From: Paenibacillus sp. W2I17
Lineage (GTDB): Bacteria; Bacillota; Bacilli; Paenibacillales; Paenibacillaceae
Reading direction: 5' to 3'
Length of the DNA stretch: 64,000 bases
Assembly: GCF_030815985.1 (NCBI RefSeq)
Contig: NZ_JAUSXM010000001.1
Span: forward strand, 4,898,001-4,962,000
Every line of letters starts with the position of its first letter. The stretch's first letter is position 1. The position numbers were made by a program, and so were the translations under genes. The notes under the pieces were generated by a model. The model did no database searches. It was given only the letters and a program-made list of their open reading frames with translations, and had not been told where the DNA came from. Positions 38,925 through 52,536 of the stretch are shown piece after piece.

Positions 38925-39061
38925 TTATGCCCAATTCGGGTCATGGGAAGAACTGCCGTGATTCATTTTTACCGAAACCGTTTTAGAAATAATAAAGACC
39001 TATATCATCCATTCAGATTGAAGTCGGTTTGGAAGGATTAACCAAATGGTTATTTCACCAT

Positions 39062-39090
39062 TTGAATGGGTAAATCTTTACGTATATAAA
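39062..39090 (+). promoter_or_regulatory. Promoter driving structured leader copy A
   Basis: TTGAAT, 17 bp, TATAAA. The predicted start is within a few bases of the first paired strand of the leader (39102). Confidence 0.65.
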
Positions 39091-39101
39091 GTGAAACTAA
39101 G

Positions 39102-39285
39102 ATATACACGAACACGGAGAGTGCAGAACCAATCTGAAGAAGCGCAGCTAAAAGCTTTCTGAAAGAAAGCTGCTTCGAAAGCATACGCTAAAACCGGATT
39201 TTCCCTTTGAGGAAGGGAATCAAAAAAATCTGGGGATAACAACGATCGGAAGATGGTACTGCAATCGGAGTGACACTGTGTAAAT
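39102..39285 (+). ncRNA. Structured leader RNA element, copy A
   Basis: A non-coding element of about 184 nt. Closing stem 39102-39109 with 39278-39285; second stem GCAGAACCAATCT (39123-39135) with 39251-39262; hairpin AGCTTTCT/AGAAAGCT; a long stem-loop built on CCGGATT/AATCTGG with inner TTCCCTT/AAGGGAA. The shared tail AATCTGGGGATAAC follows. It ends 38 nt before the sugar-binding-protein gene, on the same strand. Homologous to 42526-42715 and 51619-51808. No reading frame is kept between copies. Confidence 0.7.
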
Positions 39286-39323
39286 CACATTAGTTCAATT
39301 TATTAAGCTGAGGGAGGTACAAC

Positions 39324-40562
39324 ATGAGAACAACGCTTACCAAGGCTCTCGGGACAATGTTGCTGTGTGGAATGATGGCTGTACTTTTATCTTCCTGTAC
39401 CAGTGGAGATAGCGCGAATGGCAAAGTGCAGATTGAATTTTTCCAGAACAAGCCTGAAGCCAAAACAACCTTTGATGAATTGATCAAGACGTTCAACGCG
39501 GAGCATGACGATATCCAAGTGACACAGGTGAATCCGCCAGATGCGGAGACAGTACTGAAGACGCGTGTCGTCAAAAATGATATACCGGATATTATGGCCA
39601 TGGGTGCAACCGACACCTATTCCATTCTGGCTCAGAGTGATATTTTCACCGATCTGACGGACAGCTCATTACTCCAGACGATTGATCCGAACTACATACA
39701 AATGCTGAATGATCTCACAGGCATGGACGAAGTGACTGGTATTCCTTACGCGACTAATGCAAACGGCATCATGTACAACAAAACGCTGTTTAAGGAAATG
39801 GGATTGGACGTGCCCAAGACGTGGGATGAACTCATTGCAACCGCCCAAAAGATTAAGGATGCAGGTGAGATTCCATTTTACTTCACATACAAGGATGACT
39901 GGCAGACGAGCCTGCCGTTCAATGCACTAGCCTCCAATCTGGTTGGTATTGATTTCTACCAAGAGCGACGCGATAACAAAGTGACGTTCAAGGAGAAGTA
40001 CCGCGAGGTAGCTGAGAAGCAGCTGGAACTCATGAAATACGGTCACGGCGATAACTTTGGTAAAGCTTATTCGGACGGTAACCGTGCCTTTGCTAACGGT
40101 GAAGCTTTCATGTACATCCAGGGAACCTGGGCCATCTCGGAGATTCGCAAAGCGAACCCGAATGTTGACATTGGTTTCTTCCCATTCCCAACAGGCAACG
40201 ATGCAAGCGAGATCAAGCTGGTGAACGGGATTGACTCCCTGTTTACCATTGCGGAGGACACGCCTAATCGCGAGCAGGCGGAGACGTTTATTGCGTTTCT
40301 ATTAGAGCCTGAAAATATCGGAAGATACATTGACGAACAAACGCTGTTCTCTGCGGTAGAAGGCGTGAAGCAGGATGATCCTGCCGTACAGGAATTGATG
40401 CCTTATATCGAGCAGGGTAAAGTTATTGACTTTCCCGATCACTATATTCCGGCTGCGGTGCAGCTGAATTCCATCGTACAGTCCTTTTTGCAGAACCAAA
40501 ACATCGACAACTATCTAGATACACTCGACAAAGAATGGGACAAGGTTGCCAATCGGCGCTAA
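39324..40562 (+). CDS. Sugar ABC transporter solute-binding lipoprotein 1
   Basis: A 412-residue family-1 binding protein with a lipoprotein signal ending in LLSSCTSGD. Typical blocks: IEFFQNKPEAKTTFDELI, GIPYATNANGIMYNK, FMYIQGTWAISEI and DIGFFPFPTG. The start follows GAGGGAGG. It lies behind structured leader copy A, and with the two permeases that follow it forms an importer that lacks its own ATPase. The substrate is unknown; the nearby sensor kinase and second ABC system suggest oligosaccharides. Confidence 0.9.
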   Translation: MRTTLTKALGTMLLCGMMAVLLSSCTSGDSANGKVQIEFFQNKPEAKTTFDELIKTFNAEHDDIQVTQVNPPDAETVLKTRVVKNDIPDIMAMGATDTYSILAQSDIFTDLTDSSLLQTIDPNYIQMLNDLTGMDEVTGIPYATNANGIMYNKTLFKEMGLDVPKTWDELIATAQKIKDAGEIPFYFTYKDDWQTSLPFNALASNLVGIDFYQERRDNKVTFKEKYREVAEKQLELMKYGHGDNFGKAYSDGNRAFANGEAFMYIQGTWAISEIRKANPNVDIGFFPFPTGNDASEIKLVNGIDSLFTIAEDTPNREQAETFIAFLLEPENIGRYIDEQTLFSAVEGVKQDDPAVQELMPYIEQGKVIDFPDHYIPAAVQLNSIVQSFLQNQNIDNYLDTLDKEWDKVANRR

Positions 40563-40586
40563 GCCTTGTCTGAAGGAGGATGGAGT

Positions 40587-41453
40587 ATGAACAAGCGTAT
40601 CGCACCTTATTACTGGATGACGGTTCCGGCGGTTGTATTGTTCTTTGTATTTATGACACTGCCGGCCCTCCAGGGCATCTATTATTCATTTACGAATTAT
40701 AACGGATTCGGGAAAGAGTATGATTTTGTTGGTTTCAAAAACTATTTCAACTTGTTCCAGGATGACAATGTAGGTAATGCCTACTGGTTTACGTTCAAAT
40801 TTGCGATCGTGGTGACGATCCTGACCAATATCCTGAGCTTACTCATTGCACTCGGGCTGAATGCCAAGATCAAGTTCCGTAACTTTTTCCGCGGTATCTA
40901 TTTCCTGCCCAATATTCTGAGTGTGCTGATCGTAGGTTACATATTTAACTACCTGTTCTCCAACGTATTCCCGACCTGGGGACAAAATCTGGGCATCAAT
41001 GCGCTATCCACCAACATTCTCGGCAGCGAGAGTCTGGCTTGGATCGGTATCGTCATTGTTGCAGTATGGCAATCCGTGGCCCTGAATACGATTCTGTATT
41101 TGGCTGGTCTGCAAACGATACCAACGACACTGTACGAGGCATCCAACCTAGACGGTGCAGGCAAATGGCGTGAATTCTGGAGCATTACATTCCCACTTAT
41201 TGCCCCCTTCTTCACCATTAATATGGTGCTGGCGATGAAAAACTCGCTCATGGTCTTCGATCAAATCGTAGCCTTGACCAACGGTGGTCCCGGACGGGCG
41301 ACGCAGTCCATCTCTCATCTGATCTACACCGGTGGATTTGAAGGCGGCGAATATGCATATCAATCTGCGAACTCGGTTATTTACTTCATCGTTATTGCGG
41401 TGATTTCAATTCTACAAATCCGGTTCCTGCAAAGAAGGGAGATGGATCTGTAA
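40587..41453 (+). CDS. Sugar ABC transporter permease 1a (MalF type)
   Basis: A 288-residue permease with six helices; the EAA loop (YEASNLDGAGKWREFWSITFP in outline) lies near residue 187. I chose the ATG at 40587, 8 nt after AAGGAGGA, not the TTG at 40566. Its stop overlaps the next start (TAATG). Confidence 0.9.
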   Translation: MNKRIAPYYWMTVPAVVLFFVFMTLPALQGIYYSFTNYNGFGKEYDFVGFKNYFNLFQDDNVGNAYWFTFKFAIVVTILTNILSLLIALGLNAKIKFRNFFRGIYFLPNILSVLIVGYIFNYLFSNVFPTWGQNLGINALSTNILGSESLAWIGIVIVAVWQSVALNTILYLAGLQTIPTTLYEASNLDGAGKWREFWSITFPLIAPFFTINMVLAMKNSLMVFDQIVALTNGGPGRATQSISHLIYTGGFEGGEYAYQSANSVIYFIVIAVISILQIRFLQRREMDL

Positions 41454-42280
41454 TGAGAAGCCGTACACGAATCAATTGGCTCGTTATGCTGCTCGTTGTG
41501 CTGGGTACCCTGTTTATCCTGTTCCCATTGTATATGACCGTTACGATTGCTTTGAAAAATCCGGAACAGATGGCCCAATCGGTCTTTGCCATTCCGACAA
41601 CGCTTCACTGGGAGAATTTCGCGAGGGCCATCGACATGACAAACTTCTTCCAATCGTTCCGTAACAGTGCGATCGTTACCGCATCCACCGTGCTTTTGAC
41701 GTTGCTCAGTAACTCGATGGTGGCCTATGCGATTGCGCGGAATATGGAGAAACGCAAGTTTTTCAAAGGACTGTATTATTACTTCGTCAGCGCGATGTTC
41801 ATTCCGTTCCCAATCATCATGCTGCCGATTGTTAAACTGACCGCATCGCTGGAGATGACAAATCTGGTAGGTCTGATCCTGCTTCACACGGTTTATGGCC
41901 TGGCATTTAACGTATTTGTGTACGTTGGATATATCCGGTCCATTCCGGTAGCGCTGGAGGAAGCGGCGTTTGTGGATGGGGCAACAACCTGGGGCACATT
42001 CTGGAAAATTATTTTCCCGCTCATGGCACCCATCAGTGCCACAGTTGGTATTCTGACTTGCCTGTCGACGTACAACGACTTCTTGCTGCCACTCATTATT
42101 ATCAGTGATCCGGGACAATACACGCTGCCGCTGGTACAGTATGTATTCCAAGGACAGTTTAATACCGAGTTTAACCTTGCGTTTGCATCCTACTTGCTCG
42201 CGTTGCTGCCGATGATTATCATCTACCTGTTTGCGCAGAAATGGATTATCAACGGGGTTACCCAAGGGTCTGTGAAATAA
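41453..42280 (+). CDS. Sugar ABC transporter permease 1b (MalG type)
   Basis: A 275-residue permease, translationally coupled to permease 1a by a 1-base overlap. Six helices; the docking loop is EEAAFVDGATTWGTFWKIIFP in outline; the tail ends in GVTQGSVK. Closes the operon ahead of an exceptionally long terminator. Confidence 0.9.
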   Translation: MRSRTRINWLVMLLVVLGTLFILFPLYMTVTIALKNPEQMAQSVFAIPTTLHWENFARAIDMTNFFQSFRNSAIVTASTVLLTLLSNSMVAYAIARNMEKRKFFKGLYYYFVSAMFIPFPIIMLPIVKLTASLEMTNLVGLILLHTVYGLAFNVFVYVGYIRSIPVALEEAAFVDGATTWGTFWKIIFPLMAPISATVGILTCLSTYNDFLLPLIIISDPGQYTLPLVQYVFQGQFNTEFNLAFASYLLALLPMIIIYLFAQKWIINGVTQGSVK

Positions 42281-42315
42281 CTGAAGATGTGTCACAGAAA
42301 AGGATATGTGTGAAG

Positions 42316-42373
42316 GGATCAAAACAAAGAGAGGTGGACTTTAAAAGTCCCCTCTCTTTGTTTTGATCCTTTT
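42316..42373. terminator. Very long, perfect terminator hairpin
   Basis: Outer arms of 19 bp (42316-42334 with 42351-42369) and inner arms of 7 bp (42336-42342 with 42344-42350), interrupted only by one bulged T. T-run on the + side and A-run on the other, so it could work both ways. It isolates the upstream ABC operon from the leader/kinase unit. Confidence 0.92.
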
Positions 42374-42483
42374 CATTTAACGTTTGGGAACTCTTCGGAG
42401 GATTGATTAACCTGTAAATTTATGCTATTTTTTAGTCGTTAGTTTAATCGGTAAACAAAGACGAGAAGAGAAGAAGATTAAGG

Positions 42484-42512
42484 TTCAATTTTGCAAGCGC
42501 TTTAACTATATA
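42484..42512 (+). promoter_or_regulatory. Promoter driving structured leader copy B
   Basis: TTCAAT, 17 bp, TATATA, 14-16 bp before the first paired strand of the leader, like copy A. The spacer holds a cre-like site. Confidence 0.6.
42491..42505 (+). promoter_or_regulatory. cre-like site in the promoter spacer
   Basis: TTGCAAGCGCTTTAA fits WTGNAANCGNWNNCW except at position 14 (A for C). CcpA binding here would block the promoter of the two-component system. Confidence 0.55.
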
Positions 42513-42525
42513 AATTGAACTAAAC

Positions 42526-42715
42526 ATTTGCACGAGAACGGAGAGGGCAGAAATAACCTGAAAAAGCGGAGCTAAAAGCTTTCTGAAAGAAAGCTGCATC
42601 GGAAGCATATGCTTCGCCTTTATCCCCGGATTTTCCCCTTTAAAAAGGGAATCAAAAAATCTGGGGATAACAGCGATTGGAAGGTTATTCTGTCATCGTA
42701 GTGGCTAGTGTAAAT
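42526..42715 (+). ncRNA. Structured leader RNA element, copy B
   Basis: Homologue of copy A. Closing stem ATTTGCAC (42526-42533) with GTGTAAAT (42708-42715); second stem 42547-42559 with 42682-42694, where AATAACCT/AGGTTATT replaces the CCAATCT/AGATGG of copy A; hairpin AGCTTTCT-GAA-AGAAAGCT; palindromic GAAGCATATGCTTC; CCCCGGATT with AATCTGGGG around a CCC/GGG inner stem; then GATAACAGCGAT. It lies about 125 nt before the sensor kinase start. Confidence 0.7.
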
Positions 42716-42839
42716 ATTCTTTCGTTCATTTTATATAGGGGAACTGAATACGTAGATAAATCCGGCATCGTTTGTACCCAGTCTTCAAGAGCACGGGCGT
42801 AAGGTGGTGGATTCTTTTACATGCCAAAAAGAGAGGAGA

Positions 42840-44612
42840 ATGGGGAAGTTGCACGGGAAAAAAGGACATTTTAACTCACTTCGCAATCAGATCTTCATTG
42901 GTTTTGTTATGGTGATGCTTGTTGTTCTGCTGCTCGCAGGCATATCGGCTTATGATCGGGTAGCTGCTCTGCTGAAAAGCAATGCGGAGAAACATATTCA
43001 CCAAACCGCTGTCCAAGCCAGTGGCAGATTGGATGCACTCATTGCACAAGTGAATTCGCTGACCGCCCAGGTGGCGGATGATTCATACGTGCAGCGTCTG
43101 CTCAGCGATGAGAAACAAGGCAACCCGGCCACCTTTAATCAGCGCCAAGCTCTCTTGCAGATTGCAGGCAGTTATCAGTCTTTCATCAACGGAGCGCAAA
43201 GTATGGAGATATACACTACGGGTTATAACCGCATATTTCCGATGGATGACCGATCCCTCGATCTCAGAGTGGAGCGCAACTGGATCAACCTGGCGGATGA
43301 AGGAAAAGGCAGACTGGTATGGGCAGGCGCTGACCCTGAAGATCCGGGTGTGCTCCTGGCTATTCGGCGGATCAACCTGCTGGATCATTCTTTCGAACAT
43401 GGAGGTTATGTGGTGGTGCGGATGCAGCGCAGTTTTTTTCAACTCAATGATTCGAATGGGACAGATGGTTCGCAGGACTCTATCATGCTCCTGGATGGGG
43501 CGGGCGAAGTGGTGACTTCCGATCTGGAGATTAATCTCGATCCCAAAGCCATATTGGACAGTGGATCAGTCGTCCAGAACGGGGAGGAATCCTATATCGT
43601 CGTCCGGCAAAAATCGGAGTTAACGGGATGGACACTTGCTGTCCTAACCCCGCTGCGAGAGACAACGGAAGGTGTATCCATCCTGAGAACGGCGCTGCTC
43701 GTCTCGGGAATGATTGGTGTTGTTCTGTTCCTTATCATGTCCTTCTTTCTGTCCACAATGATTACACGTCCGCTCATACGTCTGATGCGGGCCATGCGCA
43801 GTGCACAGCCGGGAGCAATGAGACCTAATCTAATGGTCAGCTCTACGCTGGAGATCAATGAACTCAACAACGTGTATAACCAGATGGTCTACAGGCAGAA
43901 TGAATTGACCCGTGTGGTTCATGAGAAGGAGGTCATGCAGTCCCGGGCCGAGTTGAAGGCGTTGCAGTCTCAGATTAATCCCCATTTTCTATTCAACACC
44001 CTGGAGGCGTTCTATTGGTCCCTTGAGGAGAAGGGAGACGAGGAGATGGCACGTATGGTTGTGGCGATGTCCCGATTATTTCGCTACATCATCTCCAGTT
44101 CGCAACAGGATGAATGGGTTACGATTGCCGACGAGCTGGAACACGCCGAGCGTTATCTTCAAATTATGCAGATGCGGTTGGGAGAGAGAATGCAATGGGA
44201 GATTCAGCTGAGTGATACGGTGCGTAAGGTCGCAATACCGAAACTTCTTATACAGCCCTTGGTCGAAAATGCGATTCTTCATGGGATTGAAAGTAAACTG
44301 GGCCCGGGAAAGATAAGCGTCCATGTGGATGCTTCGACTGAGGAGAATCTGGTTCGCATTGAGGTTCGGGATGATGGTCCCGGTATGGATGAATTACAGT
44401 TACAATCTGTCATTCATGCTTTACGTGGCGGACCGGCTGTGTCCAAGAAGGGGACAGGTGTAGGTCTAATCAACGTACATCGACGACTGAAGCTTTACTT
44501 TGGCAGCCAACTTGGCGAACGTTGCAAGCTTTCCATAACAAGTAAGGTTGGGGAAGGAACTGTCATTTGCTTTGAGATTCCCATGGGAACGGAGGGTGCA
44601 TATGATTCATGA
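42840..44612 (+). CDS. YesM-type sensor histidine kinase
   Basis: A 590-residue membrane sensor. TM helix 1 (about 13-33), a ~240-residue extracellular sensing domain, TM helix 2 (about 280-305), HAMP, then a LytS/YesM-type kinase: phospho-acceptor His in QINPHFLFNTLEA, N box PLVENAILHGIE, G boxes DDGPGMD and GTGVGLINVHRRL. It autophosphorylates and passes phosphate to the response regulator whose gene overlaps its end. The ATG at 42840 sits very close to GAGAGGAG, so TTG 42849 is an alternative. It follows leader copy B and sits between two sugar ABC systems, one or both of which it likely controls. Confidence 0.9.
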   Translation: MGKLHGKKGHFNSLRNQIFIGFVMVMLVVLLLAGISAYDRVAALLKSNAEKHIHQTAVQASGRLDALIAQVNSLTAQVADDSYVQRLLSDEKQGNPATFNQRQALLQIAGSYQSFINGAQSMEIYTTGYNRIFPMDDRSLDLRVERNWINLADEGKGRLVWAGADPEDPGVLLAIRRINLLDHSFEHGGYVVVRMQRSFFQLNDSNGTDGSQDSIMLLDGAGEVVTSDLEINLDPKAILDSGSVVQNGEESYIVVRQKSELTGWTLAVLTPLRETTEGVSILRTALLVSGMIGVVLFLIMSFFLSTMITRPLIRLMRAMRSAQPGAMRPNLMVSSTLEINELNNVYNQMVYRQNELTRVVHEKEVMQSRAELKALQSQINPHFLFNTLEAFYWSLEEKGDEEMARMVVAMSRLFRYIISSSQQDEWVTIADELEHAERYLQIMQMRLGERMQWEIQLSDTVRKVAIPKLLIQPLVENAILHGIESKLGPGKISVHVDASTEENLVRIEVRDDGPGMDELQLQSVIHALRGGPAVSKKGTGVGLINVHRRLKLYFGSQLGERCKLSITSKVGEGTVICFEIPMGTEGAYDS

Positions 44613-45396
44613 CAAAACGATTCTTATCGTGGATGATGAGCCGCGTACAAGAGAGGGTATTCGCAAAACACTGGAAGGATGGTCGGCAGGACGAAATCAC
44701 ATTCAGACTGCAGAAAGTGGCGTCGAGGCCGTGGAATGGCTCAAGAAAAAGCCGGCAGATCTGTTAATAACGGATGTTCGCATGCCGGAATTCTCTGGCT
44801 TGTCTCTGATTGAAGCCATTCAACATTTTTCGAACAAGCCTGTTGTCCTGATTATGTCGGGACATGCCGATTTTCAATACGCCCAGCAGGCCATTAAGTT
44901 GGGTGTTGTGGAGTATATGTTGAAACCGATAGATAAGGAACAATTGCTGCAGACCGTCGAAAAAGCCCTAAAGTTCAGCGAACAACAGCGACGTATTCAA
45001 ACGATGCAAGAAATGGTTGACCCCAAGCTGCTGGATGTTAAGGAGCGCGGAGAACAGAGGCTCAATAGCCAGATCAGTGAAGCTTTGACCTATGTGGATG
45101 CTCATCTGGGTGAACATGTGACCATGCGTGAAATCGCTGATTTACTCCATCTCAACTCCAGTTACTTCAGCGTATTGTTCAAGGAACAGATCGGCATCAA
45201 TTTTAGTGAATACCTTACTCGCAAACGCATTCAGCGCGCGAAGGAGTTGCTTGTGCAGACAACGATGCCAATCTCAGAGATTGCGGAACAGGTGGGTTAT
45301 CAGACGGATAAGTATTTTATAACGGTATTTAAAAGCCTTGAGGGGCTTAGTCCAAGCAAATATCGACATTCCCTATCTGAACGAGATAACAAATAA
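44602..45396 (+). CDS. YesN/AraC-type response regulator, short form
   Basis: A 264-residue regulator. Receiver domain with ILIVDDEP, phospho-acceptor Asp in LLITDVRMPE and Lys in MLKPIDK; then, after a ~40-residue linker, a C-terminal AraC double helix-turn-helix (MREIADLLHLNSSYFSVLFK, ISEIAEQVGYQTDKYFITVF). YesN proteins are often ~500 residues; the middle domain is absent here. The ATG overlaps the kinase stop by 11 nt and follows GGAGGG. Confidence 0.9.
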   Translation: MIHDKTILIVDDEPRTREGIRKTLEGWSAGRNHIQTAESGVEAVEWLKKKPADLLITDVRMPEFSGLSLIEAIQHFSNKPVVLIMSGHADFQYAQQAIKLGVVEYMLKPIDKEQLLQTVEKALKFSEQQRRIQTMQEMVDPKLLDVKERGEQRLNSQISEALTYVDAHLGEHVTMREIADLLHLNSSYFSVLFKEQIGINFSEYLTRKRIQRAKELLVQTTMPISEIAEQVGYQTDKYFITVFKSLEGLSPSKYRHSLSERDNK

Positions 45397-45433
45397 CCTC
45401 AAAAAAGTGGAGTTTTTCCAAATTGTTCTGGTC

Positions 45434-45462
45434 TTATAGAGGCAATAGGCCCGTGCTACAAT
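45434..45462 (+). promoter_or_regulatory. Promoter of the second sugar ABC operon
   Basis: TTATAG, 17 bp, TACAAT; weak -35. A cre-like site and a GGTTAA/TTAACC inverted repeat (45465-45470, 45481-45486) follow at once. Confidence 0.5.
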
Positions 45463-45466
45463 TTGG

Positions 45467-45481
45467 TTAAAGCGGTTACAT
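45467..45481 (-). promoter_or_regulatory. cre-like site at the start of the second sugar ABC operon
   Basis: Read on the minus strand, ATGTAACCGCTTTAA fits the cre consensus except at position 14, the same deviation as the site at 42491. It covers the predicted transcription start. Confidence 0.55.
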
Positions 45482-45510
45482 TAACCGAAAAAACCAAGGG
45501 GGTTGGGATT

Positions 45511-46830
45511 ATGAGCAAAAAGACGATGGCCATTCTTCTGTCATGGACGCTGGTTCTCGCCGTAATTTTATCCGGATGTAACAGTTCAAGTTCGGATGAA
45601 GAGGGGGAAACAGGCAGCAACGGCACAGATGGGAAAGTAACCCTCAAGTTTATGCACCTCTGGCCAGCAGGCAGCTCCGCACAGCAAAACAAATTGGTCA
45701 ACGATATCATCAAGCAGTATCAGACGGATCATCCGAATGTAACCATTAAGCAGGAAGTGCTGGAGAATGAACAATATAAGAACAAATTGAAAATCCTGTC
45801 TGCATCCAATGAACTTCCCGATGTGGGTGTAACTTGGGCTGCTGGATTTCTGGAGCCTTATGTGAAGGGGAACCTGTTCGCACCGGTCGATGATCTTCTG
45901 AGCGACTCGCTGGGCGACAAATTCATAGCCGGAACAACAGAAGCTTATGCCATAGACGGCAAAACATATGCGTTACCAATCGAGTTGAATATCTCCCCCA
46001 TTTATTATAACAAAGCCATTTTTGCAAAATATAACTTGCAGCCGCCAGCAACATACGATGAATTCCTGAGTGTGCTGAAGACACTGACAGAGAAGGGTGA
46101 GGTGCCGATCGCACTGGGCAATAAAGACCGCTGGACCGGCTCACTCTGGTATATGTATCTGGCGAATCGGTTAGGTGGAGATGCACTGGAAAAGGCCATC
46201 AATGGCTCCGGCAAGTTTGATGATCCAGCTCTGACTCAAGCTGCTGCTGAAGTACAAAAGCTGGTGGATATGAATGCTTTCAACAAAGGCTTCAACGGGT
46301 TGTCTAACGATGAGGGTAAATCCGAATTCATGAACGAAAAAGCTGCCATGTACCTGATGGGTACCTGGGAACTACCAAACTTCACGACTAACCCGGACAT
46401 CCCGCAGGAATTCAAAGACAAGATCGGATTTTTCAAATTCCCAACAATGGAAGATGGCAAGAGCGACATTAACAGCTGGGTAGGTGGTCCAGGCGTAGGG
46501 TTGTTCGTGGCCCAGAACTCCAAAGTGAAGGAAGAAGCGCAGAAGTTTGTGCAATACTTTGTGGAAAAATGGGGTGAAAGTTCGGTAACTGAAGCAGGCG
46601 TCATCCCGGCTACCAAAGTAGATACAGCTGCAGTACAGCTGCCACAGCTTTACATTGACCTGCTCAACGAATTGAATCAGGCCAGCAGCCTTACGCTCTT
46701 TGCAGACGTACAGATGAAACCGGCAGCCGCTCAGGCCCATCTTGACATGATTCAGGCATTGTTTGGCAAAGCGGTAACACCGGAGGACTTTGTGAAGAAT
46801 CATCAGGCTGCGATTGATAAAGGCAATTGA
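45511..46830 (+). CDS. Sugar ABC transporter solute-binding lipoprotein 2
   Basis: A 439-residue family-1 binding protein with lipobox LSGCNSSSS. TLKFMHLWPAGSS, YALPIELNISPIYYNKAIF and MYLMGTWELPNF are typical. I chose the ATG at 45511 after AAGGGGG. It starts an operon with two permeases, downstream of the YesM/YesN-type pair, the usual order of a two-component-controlled oligosaccharide importer. No ATPase is encoded here. Confidence 0.9.
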   Translation: MSKKTMAILLSWTLVLAVILSGCNSSSSDEEGETGSNGTDGKVTLKFMHLWPAGSSAQQNKLVNDIIKQYQTDHPNVTIKQEVLENEQYKNKLKILSASNELPDVGVTWAAGFLEPYVKGNLFAPVDDLLSDSLGDKFIAGTTEAYAIDGKTYALPIELNISPIYYNKAIFAKYNLQPPATYDEFLSVLKTLTEKGEVPIALGNKDRWTGSLWYMYLANRLGGDALEKAINGSGKFDDPALTQAAAEVQKLVDMNAFNKGFNGLSNDEGKSEFMNEKAAMYLMGTWELPNFTTNPDIPQEFKDKIGFFKFPTMEDGKSDINSWVGGPGVGLFVAQNSKVKEEAQKFVQYFVEKWGESSVTEAGVIPATKVDTAAVQLPQLYIDLLNELNQASSLTLFADVQMKPAAAQAHLDMIQALFGKAVTPEDFVKNHQAAIDKGN

Positions 46831-46868
46831 CGTACACACGTTTGAACGCTTGAAGGGAGGATAATGTG

Positions 46869-47750
46869 ATGGACAAAGTCATGTCCAACCGTCTCGTTGC
46901 TGCGTTGTACGTGCTTCCTGCACTGCTTCTGCTGCTGGTCTTGGTCTACATCCCGATCGTGCTCACCGGGTATTATGGGTTGATGCAATGGGACGGGATC
47001 GGTGCAATGACCTTTATTGGATTGGATAATTACACCAGACTGCTTCAGGACGGAACATTCTGGCAGAGTGCGAACCATACTTTTTTGCTTGCTTTGTTCT
47101 CTGCGCTGAGTCTGATCGGTTATCTGATGATTGCTCTGGTGCTGTCAGGCAAGATCAAGGGGGCCAATCTGTTCCGCAAAATATATTTGATCCCGATGCT
47201 GCTCTCTTCGGTCGCGATCGCCCAGTTATGGCTGAAGATCTATCATCCCAGCAATGGTGTACTGAACACCTTTCTGGAAGCGATCGGCTTTAGCAATCCG
47301 CCAGCCTGGCTGGCGGAGCCATCCCTGGTGTTGTATGCACTATTCGTACCGATTCTATGGCAGTATGCAGGCTTCTATATTTTGATCTATTATGCGGCCC
47401 TCAAAAATATTCCGGAATCTCTGGTGGAAGCAGCCCGGATTGATGGGGCAAGCCCTTGGCAGATCGCTTTTCGAATCAAGCTGCCCCTTATTACAGAAGT
47501 CATCAAGGTGACTGTGGTACTGGCAGTGGTGGGCTCACTCAAGTATTTTGACCTTATCTACGTGATGACCGATGGCGGACCGAATGGCTCCAGCGAAGTG
47601 ATGGCCTCCTATATGTATCGTCAGGCGTTCCGTAGCTTCGACTTTGGTTACGGCAGTGCTGTAGGGTTCTTCCTGCTCTTGATCTGTCTGCTTGTTACCT
47701 GGCTGCTTCGTAAAGCGACGGCATCCAAAGATACGATCCAGTATTCCTGA
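46869..47750 (+). CDS. Sugar ABC transporter permease 2a (MalF type)
   Basis: A 293-residue permease with six helices and an EAA loop (VEAARIDGASPWQIAFRIKLP in outline, near residue 195). The ATG at 46869 is 8 nt after GGAGG; the GTG one codon earlier is too close. Confidence 0.9.
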   Translation: MDKVMSNRLVAALYVLPALLLLLVLVYIPIVLTGYYGLMQWDGIGAMTFIGLDNYTRLLQDGTFWQSANHTFLLALFSALSLIGYLMIALVLSGKIKGANLFRKIYLIPMLLSSVAIAQLWLKIYHPSNGVLNTFLEAIGFSNPPAWLAEPSLVLYALFVPILWQYAGFYILIYYAALKNIPESLVEAARIDGASPWQIAFRIKLPLITEVIKVTVVLAVVGSLKYFDLIYVMTDGGPNGSSEVMASYMYRQAFRSFDFGYGSAVGFFLLLICLLVTWLLRKATASKDTIQYS

Positions 47751-47780
47751 CGTAAGTGAAATGAAAGGAGGTCCATCCCG

Positions 47781-48668
47781 GTGAAGACGGATACGGCCGT
47801 TAGATTGCCAACTTACCCGGGGACAGGCCGAGGTTCGGCGTGGTTAAGGAGATTCGGATATGTTCTGCTGTATTTCCTCTTGTCCCTGGTAGCTTTGCTG
47901 CAAATTTTGCCCTTGGTATGGCTGCTGTTGTTCTCGCTTAAAAATAATCAGGAAGTATTCGACATGGCGCCGTTTTCCCTTCCTGCTACTCCGCGTTGGG
48001 AAAACTATGTCAAGGTATGGACAGAGGGAAATATCAGCTTGTACTTCTTCAACAGTGTATGGATTACGGTGGTCTCGGTGGTGGTCACCGTGCTGTTTGC
48101 CAGTCTGGTGACCTTTGCCATTACACGTATGCGCTGGAAGGGTCGTTCGCTGGTGCTGGGGCTATTTATGGTGGGTCTGATGATCCCTGTGCACTCCACG
48201 TTGATCCCTTTGTTCAGCTTGTTCCTGAAGCTTCATCTCACAGATCATCCTTTGTCAGTCATCTTGTCTTATATTGCCTTTAATATGCCAATTACCATTA
48301 TGATTCTACTGGGATTCTACTACGCGCTTCCCCGGGAAGTAGAAGAAGCCGCAGTGATGGATGGTTGCTCCGTGCATCGGATTTTCTTTCGGATTGTGCT
48401 GCCGATGACGTCTTCGGTCATTTCCACAACGGCGATCATCAACATGATCTATAACTGGAATGAATTCATCTTTGTTAATACGTTCATCAGTACAGATTCG
48501 TACAAGACCTTAACTGTTGGGGTACAGAACTTTATCGGTCAATATACAACGGATTGGGGAGCCATTGGTGCAACGCTGATGATTAGCATTATGCCGATCC
48601 TGATTGCTTTTCTCATCCTGAGTAATCGAATCGTGGAGGGCATTGCTGCGGGTTCTGTTAAAGGTTAA
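47781..48668 (+). CDS. Sugar ABC transporter permease 2b (MalG type)
   Basis: A 295-residue permease beginning with GTG after AAAGGAGGT. It has a longer basic N-terminus (about 25 residues) than its paralogues, six helices, an EEAAVMDGCSVHRIFFRIVLP docking loop in outline, and the tail GIAAGSVKG. Confidence 0.9.
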   Translation: MKTDTAVRLPTYPGTGRGSAWLRRFGYVLLYFLLSLVALLQILPLVWLLLFSLKNNQEVFDMAPFSLPATPRWENYVKVWTEGNISLYFFNSVWITVVSVVVTVLFASLVTFAITRMRWKGRSLVLGLFMVGLMIPVHSTLIPLFSLFLKLHLTDHPLSVILSYIAFNMPITIMILLGFYYALPREVEEAAVMDGCSVHRIFFRIVLPMTSSVISTTAIINMIYNWNEFIFVNTFISTDSYKTLTVGVQNFIGQYTTDWGAIGATLMISIMPILIAFLILSNRIVEGIAAGSVKG

Positions 48669-48681
48669 AAGGCTGAGGGCC

Positions 48682-48730
48682 TAAGGTCCTTCCATTACTT
48701 GCTTAAAAGCGAGTTGGGAGGGTCCTTTTT
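48682..48730 (+). terminator. Terminator of the second sugar ABC operon
   Basis: An AAGGTCCTTCC arm pairs with GGGAGGGTCCTT (one mismatch and a G-U pair), with an inner ACTTGC/GCGAGT stem, then six T. Confidence 0.8.
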
Positions 48731-48904
48731 TGTCTTCTACAACCTCCGGCAGGCGTACGCAAGCGGGGCTTTATGAAAGTAGTGAAAATACCTATTTATG
48801 GAATTACAAAAAACTTTCAACTATTTTCGCAAAACTACTGCATTTTCAAACCACCTGTGCTAACATACCCTAAGAATTAAAGCCCACATGGGAAAGGTGA
48901 GAAA

Positions 48905-50314
48905 ATGACAGCAATATCCTCAACCAAAGAGTCCCTTCGTTCTGATGCCAAGGATCTGAATCTGATTCGACTGACATGGCCTATTTTCCTGGAACTCTTC
49001 TTATTTATGTTGATGGGGAGCGTGGATACGCTCATGCTCAGCTCGGTATCCGATAATGCGGTCTCCGGCGTTGGAGCAGCCAATCAGATTATTTCTATCG
49101 CTATCCTTGTATTGGAAGTCATTGGACATGGTGCTGCGATTGTAGTCGCACAATATATCGGATCGAAAAAGTTAAGTGAAGCAGCACAAGTTACGGGTAA
49201 TGCGATTACACTGAATCTTATCGTAGGTCTGGTCCTGAGCGGAATCTTCCTTCTGTTCGGAGGACAATTGTTAACACTTCTGAATATTCAAGGCGAAATT
49301 TATGATTTTGCCCGTTCGTATATAAATATCGTTGGTGGCGGGATCTTCCTCCAGGCACTCATTAATGCGCTGGCTGCGACGATTCGTACACATGGTTACA
49401 CCAAAGAAACGATGTATGTTGCTGTATTCATGAACGTGATTCACGTTGTTGGTAACTATGCATTGATCTTTGGACACTTCGGCCTGCCGAAGCTTGGGGT
49501 GGAAGGGGCAGCGATCTCCACGGTGGGAAGCCGTTTTATCTGCCTGCTGATCTTCTTCTGGTTGTTGTATCGTGTGAGCGAGGTACGGGTGGATTTCGAA
49601 TACTACATTAAGTTGTCCAAGAAATTCATTGGCAAAATTTTGCGGATTGGCATTCCGTCTGCGATGGAATCGATGGTATATCATTCCTGCCAGCTCGTGT
49701 TCACGCTGTATGTGACCTATCTGGGCGCAGAAGCTATGGCAACCAAACAGTATGCGGGTAATATCTCCAGCTATATCTACTTGTTCAGCATGGCGATTGG
49801 TATGGGGACATCGATCATTGTAGGCCGGCTTGTGGGTGCGCGGCGCAAAGACGATGCGTACAAACGTGTTTTTGACAGTGTAAAATGGGCCCTTCTGGCC
49901 ACGGTTATCATTGATGTAATCATCATTTTTTTCCGTGTGCCGCTGATGAGCATATTTACGGATAATCCGGAAATTATCAAGCTGGGGGCTCAAGTGATTT
50001 TACTCAGTCTGTTGCTCGAAACCGGGCGTACCTGCAATATAGTGATCATTGGTTCCCTGCGTGCGGCAGGGGATGCAAAGTTCCCGGTGTACATGGGTCT
50101 GATCTCCATGGTCTGCATGAGTCTGCCATTGGGGTACCTGCTCATATTCAAGCTTCATCTGGGGCTCGCTGGTGTGTGGCTTGCCATTGCGGCGGATGAG
50201 TGGACCCGCGCGGTCATTATGTACTTCCGCTGGAAGAGTAGAGCTTGGGAGAAACATGAATTGGTGGAGCATGATGACGAAGAGGTTGGTGCACAGCCGG
50301 TACCGGCTGTCTGA
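48905..50314 (+). CDS. MATE-family efflux transporter
   Basis: A 469-residue membrane protein with about twelve helices in two halves. It begins with the MATE pattern (IRLTWPIFLELFLFMLMGSV, DTLMLSS) and repeats it at the middle (ILRIGIPSAMESMVYHSCQL, seen in part). The family exports cationic drugs or metabolites by H+ or Na+ antiport. A hydrophilic acidic tail ends the protein. The start follows GGAAAGGTGAG. It is a single gene with no drug-specific marker. Confidence 0.92.
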   Translation: MTAISSTKESLRSDAKDLNLIRLTWPIFLELFLFMLMGSVDTLMLSSVSDNAVSGVGAANQIISIAILVLEVIGHGAAIVVAQYIGSKKLSEAAQVTGNAITLNLIVGLVLSGIFLLFGGQLLTLLNIQGEIYDFARSYINIVGGGIFLQALINALAATIRTHGYTKETMYVAVFMNVIHVVGNYALIFGHFGLPKLGVEGAAISTVGSRFICLLIFFWLLYRVSEVRVDFEYYIKLSKKFIGKILRIGIPSAMESMVYHSCQLVFTLYVTYLGAEAMATKQYAGNISSYIYLFSMAIGMGTSIIVGRLVGARRKDDAYKRVFDSVKWALLATVIIDVIIIFFRVPLMSIFTDNPEIIKLGAQVILLSLLLETGRTCNIVIIGSLRAAGDAKFPVYMGLISMVCMSLPLGYLLIFKLHLGLAGVWLAIAADEWTRAVIMYFRWKSRAWEKHELVEHDDEEVGAQPVPAV

Positions 50315-50493
50315 CGAAGAATGTTGTGCAAATAGATAAAAGGAGAGTCAATTACGGACAGGATTCCATCCGTGATTGGCTCTTTTTTGCGTTCCGGGAT
50401 AGAGGCCAACCGAAGTGAAGATAGCAAAAATGATCAAAACGGCGATGACATCCTTCACGTATAGTAAGGATATGGAAGGGGGCTTTACCTCAG

Positions 50494-51391
50494 TTGAGCC
50501 GTTACCGTGCAATGATTCAGCAAAGTTTGTTCTTTATTGAGACTCATCTGCATGAGCAGATTGGACTGGAAGAAGTGGCATCCGAGGCGTTGTTGTCGCC
50601 ATATCACTACCATCGAATTTTCCGTAATGAGGTGGGCATGACCGTGGTGGATTATATCCGAAACCGTCGGATGAGTCTGGCGTCCACCACCCTCCGATCG
50701 ACGGATGCGGGCATTTTGGACATCGCTCTGGCATGTGGTTTTGAGAGTCAGGAAGCCTTCACCCGCGCATTCCGCAAATTATATGGCATGCCACCAGGAC
50801 GTTTTCGCAAATTGTTTGATCTGAAATTATTCGAAGGAAGAACCAGAGGAGGAGAATTACAGATGAATCAGACGTCAACAATTACAGGTTGGATGTTAAC
50901 CGGAAGTCATCCGCAGAATTATGAGATGGGCATTGATCCGGCTGAAGTGCATCAGGGGGAAAGCATCAGGATATTTGAAGGCAGTTACGCCAATGGAGCC
51001 TAACGAGTTCGCAACAATGATGCAACAGTTCAGAGCGGACAAGTATGTAGGTAAGCGGATGAAATTATCGGGATTTGTGAAGACCGAGCATGTGGATGCG
51101 TTCTGCGGATTATGGATGCGTGTGGATAATAACGTCCATGATGTACTTCAATTTGATAACATGCATGATCGGCCAATCACGGGTACGCAGCCATGGAATC
51201 AGTACAGTATTGTGCTTGATGTGCCGGAGGGCAGCGCGGTCATTTCATTCGGGGTTATTTTGAACGGCAAAGGAAAAGTGTGGGTCGACAGCTTCCGCTT
51301 CGAGGAGGTTGATCTGAACACACCGCTGACACATATGGAGACAGAGTACGAGATGTCGGACGAGCCGCTCAATCTGTCATTTGAGGAGTAA
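50494..51391 (+). pseudogene. AraC-family regulator broken by a frameshift
   Basis: The first part (TTG 50494 on) gives an AraC double helix-turn-helix (IGLEEVASEALLSPYHYHRI, ILDIALACGFESQEAFTRAF) and the start of a C-terminal domain. At a run of five G (50955-50959) the frame should shift: with four G, VHQG would read on into KASGYLKAVTPMEPNEFATM and a further ~135 residues to 51391. As written, the first frame stops at 51003 and the rest has no ribosome site of its own. The C-terminal part looks like a carbohydrate-binding-like beta domain. A real mutation, slippage at the G-run, or a sequencing error are all possible. Confidence 0.8.
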
Positions 51392-51618
51392 ATGCTGAGG
51401 TGATCAATAAGTTGTTGCCTAAACAGTAACATGAAACGGGAATCTATAGATCAAGGGCTGATCCAATCACGGGTTGGCTCTTTTTGTTACCTTTAGGGTA
51501 TAAAGAAAGTAGAGCCAAGTCCAAGCTGAAAGAATGCAAGCTTCTCATACAAATTTCAAACTCATCCATAGCTAATTAGCACAGACCTTGCTAACATAAA
51601 TAAAAAAGAACTGAATAT

Positions 51619-51808
51619 TTACACGAAAACGAAGAGTGCAGAACCAGTCTGAAGAAACGAAGTTCAAAGCTTTCTGTCAGAAAGCTACTTCGGAAGCATA
51701 TGCTACGCCCTTTATCACCGGATTTCCCCTTTGGAAGAAGGGGATTAAAGAAATCTGGGGATAACAGCGATCAGAAGACGGTACTGCACTTGAAGTTATG
51801 TCGTGTAA
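51619..51808 (+). ncRNA. Structured leader RNA element, copy C
   Basis: Homologue of copies A and B. Closing stem TTACACGA (51619-51626) with TCGTGTAA (51801-51808), perfect; second stem GCAGAACCAGTCT (51638-51650) with AGACGGTACTGC (51776-51787); CGAAGT/ACTTCG around the AGCTTTCTG hairpin; inner CCCCTT/AAGGGG stem; shared AATCTGGGGATAACAGCGAT. The last paired base is 2-3 nt before the TAGAGG ribosome site of the response regulator. The left part of this intergenic region (51392-51600) holds only a possible terminator near 51455-51487. Confidence 0.7.
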
Positions 51809-51825
51809 CGTAGAGGATGAATCCC

Positions 51826-52536
51826 ATGAATAAAAAAGTGCTCGTGGTAGATGACGAATCAAGCATCGTCAGTGCCATTGCTTACGCGCTGCGGCGCGAA
51901 GGATATGAAGTAGAGACTGCGAGTGACGGTGAAGAGGCCTTGGTCAAGGTCGCATCGTTTCACCCACAGGTCATGATTCTGGACGTCATGATGCCCAGGC
52001 TCGATGGATACGGCGTATGCCGCAGGCTGGAGGACCGCGAGGATATCGGCATTATTTTGCTGACCGTCAAAAATGATATCGTGGACAAAATCGTTGGCCT
52101 GGAAATGGGCGCCGATGATTATATGACCAAGCCATTCGAGATCCGTGAACTGCTCGCAAGGGTGAAAGCGCTCATGCGCCGTGTCGAGAAAAGCAGTCCA
52201 CCACCTGACGATTCGAAGAATCAGGCCATCGTGAATGGCACACTGCGTATTCATGTTGCTCACCGCACAGTGACCGTGAATGAGGAGAAGCTGGATCTGA
52301 CACCAAAAGAGTTCGACCTGTTGACCATTCTCATGTCCAATCCTGAGCGTGTGTACACACGAGACGATCTGCTGGACCGGGTCTGGGGCATGGAGTATGC
52401 GGGTGGTACACGAACCGTAGACATTCACATCCAGCGTTTGCGTAAAAAAATTGGAGATACGGATCAGCAAAAATTGCAGACCGTATACGGGATTGGCTAC
52501 AAAGCATCTGCACCTGATACAGGCGGGGCCATATGA
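51826..52536 (+). CDS. OmpR/PhoB-type response regulator
   Basis: A 236-residue regulator: receiver domain with VLVVDDES, Asp in VMILDVMMPR and Lys in DDYMTKPFE; then the winged-helix DNA-binding domain (LDLTPKEFDLLTILMSNPER, TVDIHIQRLRKKIGD). I chose the ATG at 51826, 9 nt after TAGAGG; the in-frame ATG at 51817 touches that site. The stop overlaps the kinase start by 4 nt. It follows structured leader copy C. Confidence 0.93.
   Translation: MNKKVLVVDDESSIVSAIAYALRREGYEVETASDGEEALVKVASFHPQVMILDVMMPRLDGYGVCRRLEDREDIGIILLTVKNDIVDKIVGLEMGADDYMTKPFEIRELLARVKALMRRVEKSSPPPDDSKNQAIVNGTLRIHVAHRTVTVNEEKLDLTPKEFDLLTILMSNPERVYTRDDLLDRVWGMEYAGGTRTVDIHIQRLRKKIGDTDQQKLQTVYGIGYKASAPDTGGAI

Follow-up and report, generated by a model that had tools for sequence, protein, structure and literature searches.

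Organization of the locus

The window analysed here is a stretch of 64,000 nucleotides from Paenibacillus sp. W2I17 (contig NZ_JAUSXM010000001.1, positions 4,898,001 to 4,962,000). It contains three copies of a structured repeat, A, B and C, all on the plus strand and each followed by a gene on the same strand. The features are listed below by their positions in the window.

39083..39305, plus strand: copy A, whole element with outer inverted-repeat arms, long form with module (arms located by comparison with 40 aligned copies)
39115..39271, plus strand: copy A, structured core (blastn, model R1, alignment A4)
39324..40562, plus strand: gene 3′ of copy A, extracellular solute-binding lipoprotein (Pfam SBP_bac_1)
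42507..42737, plus strand: copy B, whole element with outer inverted-repeat arms, long form
42539..42702, plus strand: copy B, structured core (blastn, model R1, alignment A4)
42840..44612, plus strand: gene 3′ of copy B, sensor histidine kinase (Pfam His_kinase, HATPase_c; start picked by its ribosome-binding site)
51594..51811, plus strand: copy C, whole element with degenerate outer arms (orthologous site empty in 20 of 29 loci of relatives)
51630..51796, plus strand: copy C, structured core (blastn, model R1, alignment A4)
51826..52536, plus strand: gene 3′ of copy C, response regulator (Pfam Response_reg, Trans_reg_C; start picked by its ribosome-binding site)

A preliminary description, made from the letters of the window, had proposed a three-copy structured RNA element. 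The three copies are present where it placed them and can be aligned from end to end, but copies A and B reach further out than it supposed, into the inverted-repeat arms. The double-sided stem changes that it named between the copies are found in the sequence, while its list of kept loops needs one correction, GGAAGCATATGCT being GAAAGCATACGCT in copy A. The downstream genes, which it had assigned to transport or signalling, are by Pfam those of a solute-binding protein, a histidine kinase and a response regulator.

The start codon of the lipoprotein gene lies 52 nt beyond the core of copy A. No terminator-like site overlaps any of the three copies, and an intrinsic terminator was accordingly rejected as an explanation. 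Copy B is overlapped by one promoter-like site, which lies on the minus strand; such sites are fewer across the stretch than in shuffles. The predicted folds occlude the ribosome-binding site differently, in copy A through the gene’s own coding sequence, in copy C partly through the element and in copy B hardly at all. Ahead of copy B, at 42310-42375, the window also has a long, near-perfect hairpin with a T-rich flank, terminator-like by eye, which gives a sub-threshold Rfam match to mir-1255 (34.3 bits versus 63).

Architecture of the element

The element occurs in two forms, a short one with a core of about 125 nt and a long one of about 165 nt that carries an extra hairpin module. The module, located near P3, consists of the hairpin AGCTTTCTnnnAGAAAGCT followed by GCATCGGAAGCATA. 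The window copies are of the long form; among the best 99 of the at least 175 copies in the genome, 36 cores are long and 63 short. The core stacks three stems, P2, P3 and P4, around a large purine-rich internal loop. Going inwards, P2 is followed by this loop, then by P3 and P4, and a variable apical loop caps the structure. In the internal loop, UGRAGAAGCGAAG faces GnAAG, while P3 pairs CGnUCGC with GCGAUCG or, in some copies, UCGU with ACGA. As a nearly invariant stretch, the internal loop reads UGRAGAAGCGAAGCG / GCGAUCGnAAG. Throughout alignment A6, which holds 71 sequences, the stems are highly variable and the internal loop is almost unchanged. The outer arms of many copies are inverted repeats, TATATAAGTTGAACTAAAnATTTACAC and its complement. 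A coding repeat was rejected, since any given frame runs open through the core in at most 42 of 99 copies.

The place orthologous to copy C in one relative (locus L404, genome G001) is occupied by a short form, which suggests that the module has been gained or lost in place. The module, as a hairpin with GCATCGGAAGCAT, also stands alone in tandem arrays (about 38 nt) whose hairpin stems vary (L078 in G021, 1501-1595; L072 in G024, 1501-1604). Since it is found by itself, it may have been a repeat in its own right before it became part of the element.

Copy number and occurrence

The size of the family is invisible from the window, which holds three copies against at least 175 in the genome. 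With copy C as the query, blastn finds 41 places in the 7.0-Mb genome. Covariance models R1, built from 40 aligned copies, and R2, built from 71 diverse relatives, each match 150 of 150 scored candidates, and the union of their matches gives the figure of at least 175. Alignment A6 consists of 60 kept rows and 11 copies from low-copy or more distant genomes. Eleven of 71 non-redundant rows were dropped from it by hand, chiefly for poor alignment of P2, a choice that favours structure; all 11 dropped copies match the resulting model, with 79.5-111.9 bits. Of 108 matches in one step of the analysis, 84 were used; left out were matches weaker than about 5e-5, three that had the length of the long form, and partial matches or matches of odd length, some of which were strong.

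Model R2 has matches in 157 of 198 genomes of the order, in 29 of its 43 genera. A phylum-wide draw gives matches in 5 of 299 genomes, all five in the window’s own family; filters were stricter in both draws, and just 6 genomes among the 299 come from the same class outside the order. Within this sampling, the family is seen only in Paenibacillales. A pattern scan with one genome per species yields at least 80 loci, nearly all from Paenibacillus or Saccharibacillus, and the two loci labelled Acidobacteriaceae and Clostridia (L119 and L125) have no match to the model. Four genomes of the genus have just 2 to 9 R1 matches each, all of short-form length except one array of the module alone. A plasmid or phage origin was rejected, copy C matching nothing in the plasmid or phage collection.

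Scans with Rfam 15 at gathering scores give no match in the window and none in 79 distinct loci. These scores are strict, real T-boxes falling below theirs, so the permissive scans weigh more. Over positions 39000-52000 and up to E 10, no match to a core rises above chance level; the only one that covers a core, Staphylococcus-1, is of chance level (20.9 bits versus 87.7). In six alaS loci, up to E 0.05, T-box is the only match. An Rfam match, which the preliminary description had named as evidence against its proposal, is thus not found, and neither kind of scan identifies the element as a known RNA family. The repeat does not appear among the titles and abstracts listed by the literature searches, most subscription papers being beyond their reach. 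To what Paenibacillus genomes are seen to encode, the element adds a structured RNA class for which Rfam 15 has no match.

Conservation of the core as RNA

Copies A, B and C alone give weak covariation, in 7 of 55 predicted pairs. In the larger family, covariation, which had been proposed as a check, is significant. Pairing is seen in 91.4% of the cells of alignment A6, and 26 of 33 pairs show double-sided change. Cells with double-sided change number 332, against a shuffle mean of 89, none of 500 shuffles reaches any of the five measures, and slid structures give at most 129 such cells.

Since shuffles leave the relatedness of the sequences in place, two further tests were run. When arms are mixed between copies, a copy’s own arms pair better than the mean of the mixed arms in 71 of 71 cases for P2, 71 of 71 for P4 and 82 of 99 for the outer arms; individual mixed pairs equal or exceed the own pairing in 3.5%, 6.9% and 26%, respectively. 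The second test compares G-U with A-C on the sense strand. Over 28 pairs, five of the 33 being omitted for poor alignment, G-U outnumbers A-C by 74 to 29 (p 1e-5), and over all 33 pairs by 110 to 56 (p 3e-5). Equal numbers would be expected of a structure that acts at the level of DNA, such as a cruciform or a DNA-protein binding site. Inverted repeats are, as a matter of general knowledge, common in DNA-level elements; even so, the G-U asymmetry, together with an orientation that tracks gene direction in codirectional pairs and does not clearly track replication (22:13, p 0.18), makes such a structure extremely improbable. Across the aligned copies, pairing and asymmetry show the core to be conserved as RNA on the sense strand.

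Mobility and repeat ends

The repeat end TATATAAGTTSAACTAAA, with at most two mismatches, occurs at 109 sites in the genome of the window, against 2 for a reversed-pattern control, and 80 of 100 listed end sites (of the 109) lie within 300 nt of an R1 match. Many old copies are without repeat ends. The same inverted-repeat ends also flank other elements of about 41-103 bp that have no R1 match (C1:332006-332046, about 1632976-1633078 and about 4043942-4044039).

Copy C and its surroundings were searched in 75 genomes of the genus, and 30 loci, one of them its own, were compared. The other 29 comprise five filled sites, 20 empty ones and four that are not measurable; the empty sites have a gap of 28-32 nt in place of the element. 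Comparison of L404 with the empty sites gives no clean target-site duplication, the TA at the ends blurring the boundary. At locus L262, the apical loop of an older copy holds an element with repeat ends; once this insert is removed, the older copy folds into P2, P3 and P4. L255 and L271 look, by eye, like more nested cases. Tandem copies with periods of about 222-318 bp occur at L160, L122, L144 and L100 and, in genome G009, at L079/L082/L086 and L068/L075.

The terminal inverted repeats, the dispersed copies with empty sites and the lack of coding capacity are traits of a MITE. Support for the mobile repeat, which the preliminary description had kept as its main alternative, comes from the number of copies, their inverted-repeat ends, the empty sites in relatives and the nesting of one copy in another, and in the genomes compared the empty sites and nested copies show that the element has been mobile. 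An autonomous partner with matching ends was looked for in this genome and not found. No transposase is seen by eye near lone repeat ends in 17 regions of the genome with 20 listed ends, and a Pfam scan of 10 genes beside lone ends (100 of the 109 end sites being listed) detects no transposase family.

The fold might itself be required for mobility, if the RNA were an intermediate of the process, worked as a ribozyme or guided a transposase of unknown kind. A nearly invariant internal loop and tandem copies with periods of 222-318 bp would suit such a role. TIR-type ends, however, point to DNA transposition, the 10 genes beside lone ends include no transposase family, and in old copies the fold outlasts the ends, so that this explanation is very unlikely.

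Placement relative to genes and replication

Placement was determined for the best 99 of the at least 175 copies in the genome, taken by score and not as a random draw, with genes called by a simple ORF rule rather than by annotation. Between codirectional genes, 57 copies are in sense and 7 in antisense orientation (p 8e-11); the remaining contexts are 23 divergent and 12 convergent. In other genomes, where nine of 56 loci were skipped because orientation was not automatically readable, 47 copies were placed: between codirectional genes, 30 lie in sense and 3 in antisense, and 5 copies are in divergent and 9 in convergent contexts. Random orientation, which had been named as a sign of a mobile repeat, is therefore not seen between codirectional genes, neither here (57:7) nor elsewhere (30:3). 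The earlier statement that each copy lies just ahead of a gene on its strand is true of the three in the window, but the downstream gene is on the opposite strand in 19 of 99 copies of this genome and in 12 of 47 elsewhere. Convergent placements imply that the element is more than a 5′ leader.

With the origin placed by dnaA and the terminus assumed to be opposite, 116 of 150 copies are on the leading strand. The ratio of sense to antisense is 52:3 in leading-strand gene pairs and 5:4 in lagging-strand pairs. Since the leading bias is weak outside codirectional pairs (22:13, p 0.18), an orientation driven by replication was rejected, and gene direction explains orientation better. The DnaA domain match in this genome is split, at C1:4604575-4605061, into two overlapping pieces whose open frames differ, perhaps because the assembly contains a frameshift.

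Of the 80 copies of this genome that have a sense downstream gene, 39 are spaced so that 40-70 nt separate the core from the start codon. In this peak the ribosome-binding site closely follows the outer arm; distances to the upstream gene are broad. The spacing is weaker in other genomes (10 of 35). The downstream genes have no evident common pathway, and such unrelated targets make a riboswitch tied to one pathway less likely, though they are compatible with a global signal.

Retention in alaS leaders

All 60 genomes of the genus that were searched have an alaS gene. Among 30 alaS loci compared, seven have the element before alaS, two of them (L327 and L328) scoring alike, and an eighth, L329, has a remnant from which most of the element is gone. 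Since the flanks of the six loci shown align, the alaS element looks like one old insertion. The T-box model (RF00230) matches all six alaS loci that were scanned, of which four have the element and two lack it, at E 8e-11 to 2e-14, below the gathering score. Measured to alaS, the T-box core motif is 325-381 nt upstream where the element is intact (six loci) and 124 and 103 nt upstream in the two loci that lack it. The order in the six leaders is T-box, element, ribosome-binding site and alaS start. In T-box leaders the read-through region lies downstream of the T-box, which places the element in the alaS read-through leader, between the T-box and the ribosome-binding site.

In the six alaS orthologues, 12 pairs have changed on both sides, in 24 cells against 9.6 in shuffles (0 of 500), in an alignment that was fitted to the model and so favours structure; further pair types are not above shuffles (199 of 500). 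More broadly, among 46 usable copies from other genomes (of 50), 11 stand before a gene that also follows one of 80 copies in the window’s genome. At the place of copy C, P4 is deleted in the orthologues L386 and L387.

One rival explanation is a purely selfish MITE, in which the fold would serve the element alone, for example by protection or harmless read-through, and the sense bias would reflect the purging of antisense insertions. Inverted-repeat ends, empty sites, nested and tandem copies, convergent placements, unrelated neighbouring genes and the decay of some orthologues all agree with it. Decay is also what a dead insertion should undergo, yet old copies that lack recognisable ends keep the fold while their stem sequences turn over, even within one orthologous locus. 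A selfish element is for these reasons judged unlikely.

Interpretation and proposed mechanism

The preliminary description had set a cis-acting, riboswitch-like leader against a mobile repeat. Both halves find support and hence do not exclude each other. The absence of an Rfam match, the covariation, the G-U asymmetry, the sense orientation and the retention at alaS speak for a functional RNA in cis. The element is probably, as far as comparative sequence analysis can tell, a MITE-like, non-autonomous mobile element of Paenibacillales that carries a cis-acting structured mRNA element as its payload, with a probable effect on translation or on mRNA stability. The sense bias and the retention are evident in the genomes compared; transcription at each place and regulation are inferred.

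In the proposed mechanism, the copies would be transcribed and the RNA, in a leader or an intercistronic region, would act in cis on the mRNA next to it. Its outer arms would form a long helix, often ending beside the ribosome-binding site, and the conserved internal loop would be the putative site for a protein or another factor. Translation initiation, or mRNA processing and stability, would be altered as a result. Useful copies would stay, losing their repeat ends and keeping the fold, while antisense copies would be purged. A bound factor that acts on translation or stability is preferred on three grounds: none of the window copies overlaps a terminator-like site, the arms often close near the ribosome-binding site, and RNase action is reported for the ERIC and Correia repeats. 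Direct blocking of the ribosome-binding site by the element is possible, the predicted folds differing among the three copies.

Several observations count against the payload reading. Convergent placements (12 of 99 and 9 of 47), the 5:4 ratio in lagging pairs and the weaker 40-70 nt peak elsewhere are among them, as are the lack of a common pathway and the decay of the orthologues L386/L387 and L329. The window copies give no sign of a switch, having no terminator-like site and differing in the occlusion of the ribosome-binding site, and in the alaS orthologues further pair types are not above shuffles.

A more far-reaching proposal, offered tentatively and on balance doubtful, is that a mobile leader has been copied to at least 175 places and held in sense by selection, so that a regulon was built by transposition, with unrelated genes placed on one signal or RNA-binding factor. 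If true, tRNA synthetases, two-component systems and amino-acid and lipid genes would be wired to one signal through the invariant loop, in a post-transcriptional control network. Copy number, covariation, orientation, leader position at alaS and orthologous retention converge in one order-wide family, in which the spread of a regulatory RNA becomes testable.

Comparison with known systems

In the Bacillus cereus group, bcr1 is a mobile, structured intergenic repeat of about 155 bp in a Gram-positive spore former. Its host group is not that of the Paenibacillus element, and the two are likened by description, not by sequence. The T-box (RF00230) shares the alaS leaders with the element, which it precedes, but is a separate RNA, the element itself having no Rfam match. 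As to riboswitch traits, the core is conserved and its stems covary, leader position holds at alaS but not for all copies, and the window copies have no terminator-like site and differ in how the predicted folds pair the ribosome-binding site.

Structured mobile repeats of bacteria are often regarded as parasites. Regulation by a MITE that forms a riboswitch is called conceivable in PMC10969869. The BOX, RUP and SPRITE repeats of Streptococcus pneumoniae are described in PMC3049150 as small interspersed repeats with extensive predicted RNA structure that are transcribed as operon extensions, and BOX is modular. The Paenibacillus element is likewise a small, structured, interspersed and modular repeat, a likeness of description and not of sequence. 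The pneumococcal repeats are, according to the same source, over-represented between convergent genes, and 60.8-63.3% of them lie on the leading strand, which matches the coding bias and is taken there as a sign of parasitism. The Paenibacillus element, unlike them, is sense-oriented 57:7 among the best 99 of at least 175 copies and has 116 of 150 copies on the leading strand.

ERIC and Correia repeats are MITE-like and, once transcribed, change mRNA stability through cleavage by RNase E or RNase III, as related in PMC3049150 and PMC10969869. Their hosts, enterobacteria and Neisseria, differ from that of the Paenibacillus element, to which they are likened by description, not by sequence. The motif MRSC-65-2, as presented in PMC11109978, is structured, covarying and present in dozens of copies per genome, and is classed as selfish. 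It differs in its single long stem, its occurrence in diverse phyla and its UYCCGG repeat, and is not the Paenibacillus core.
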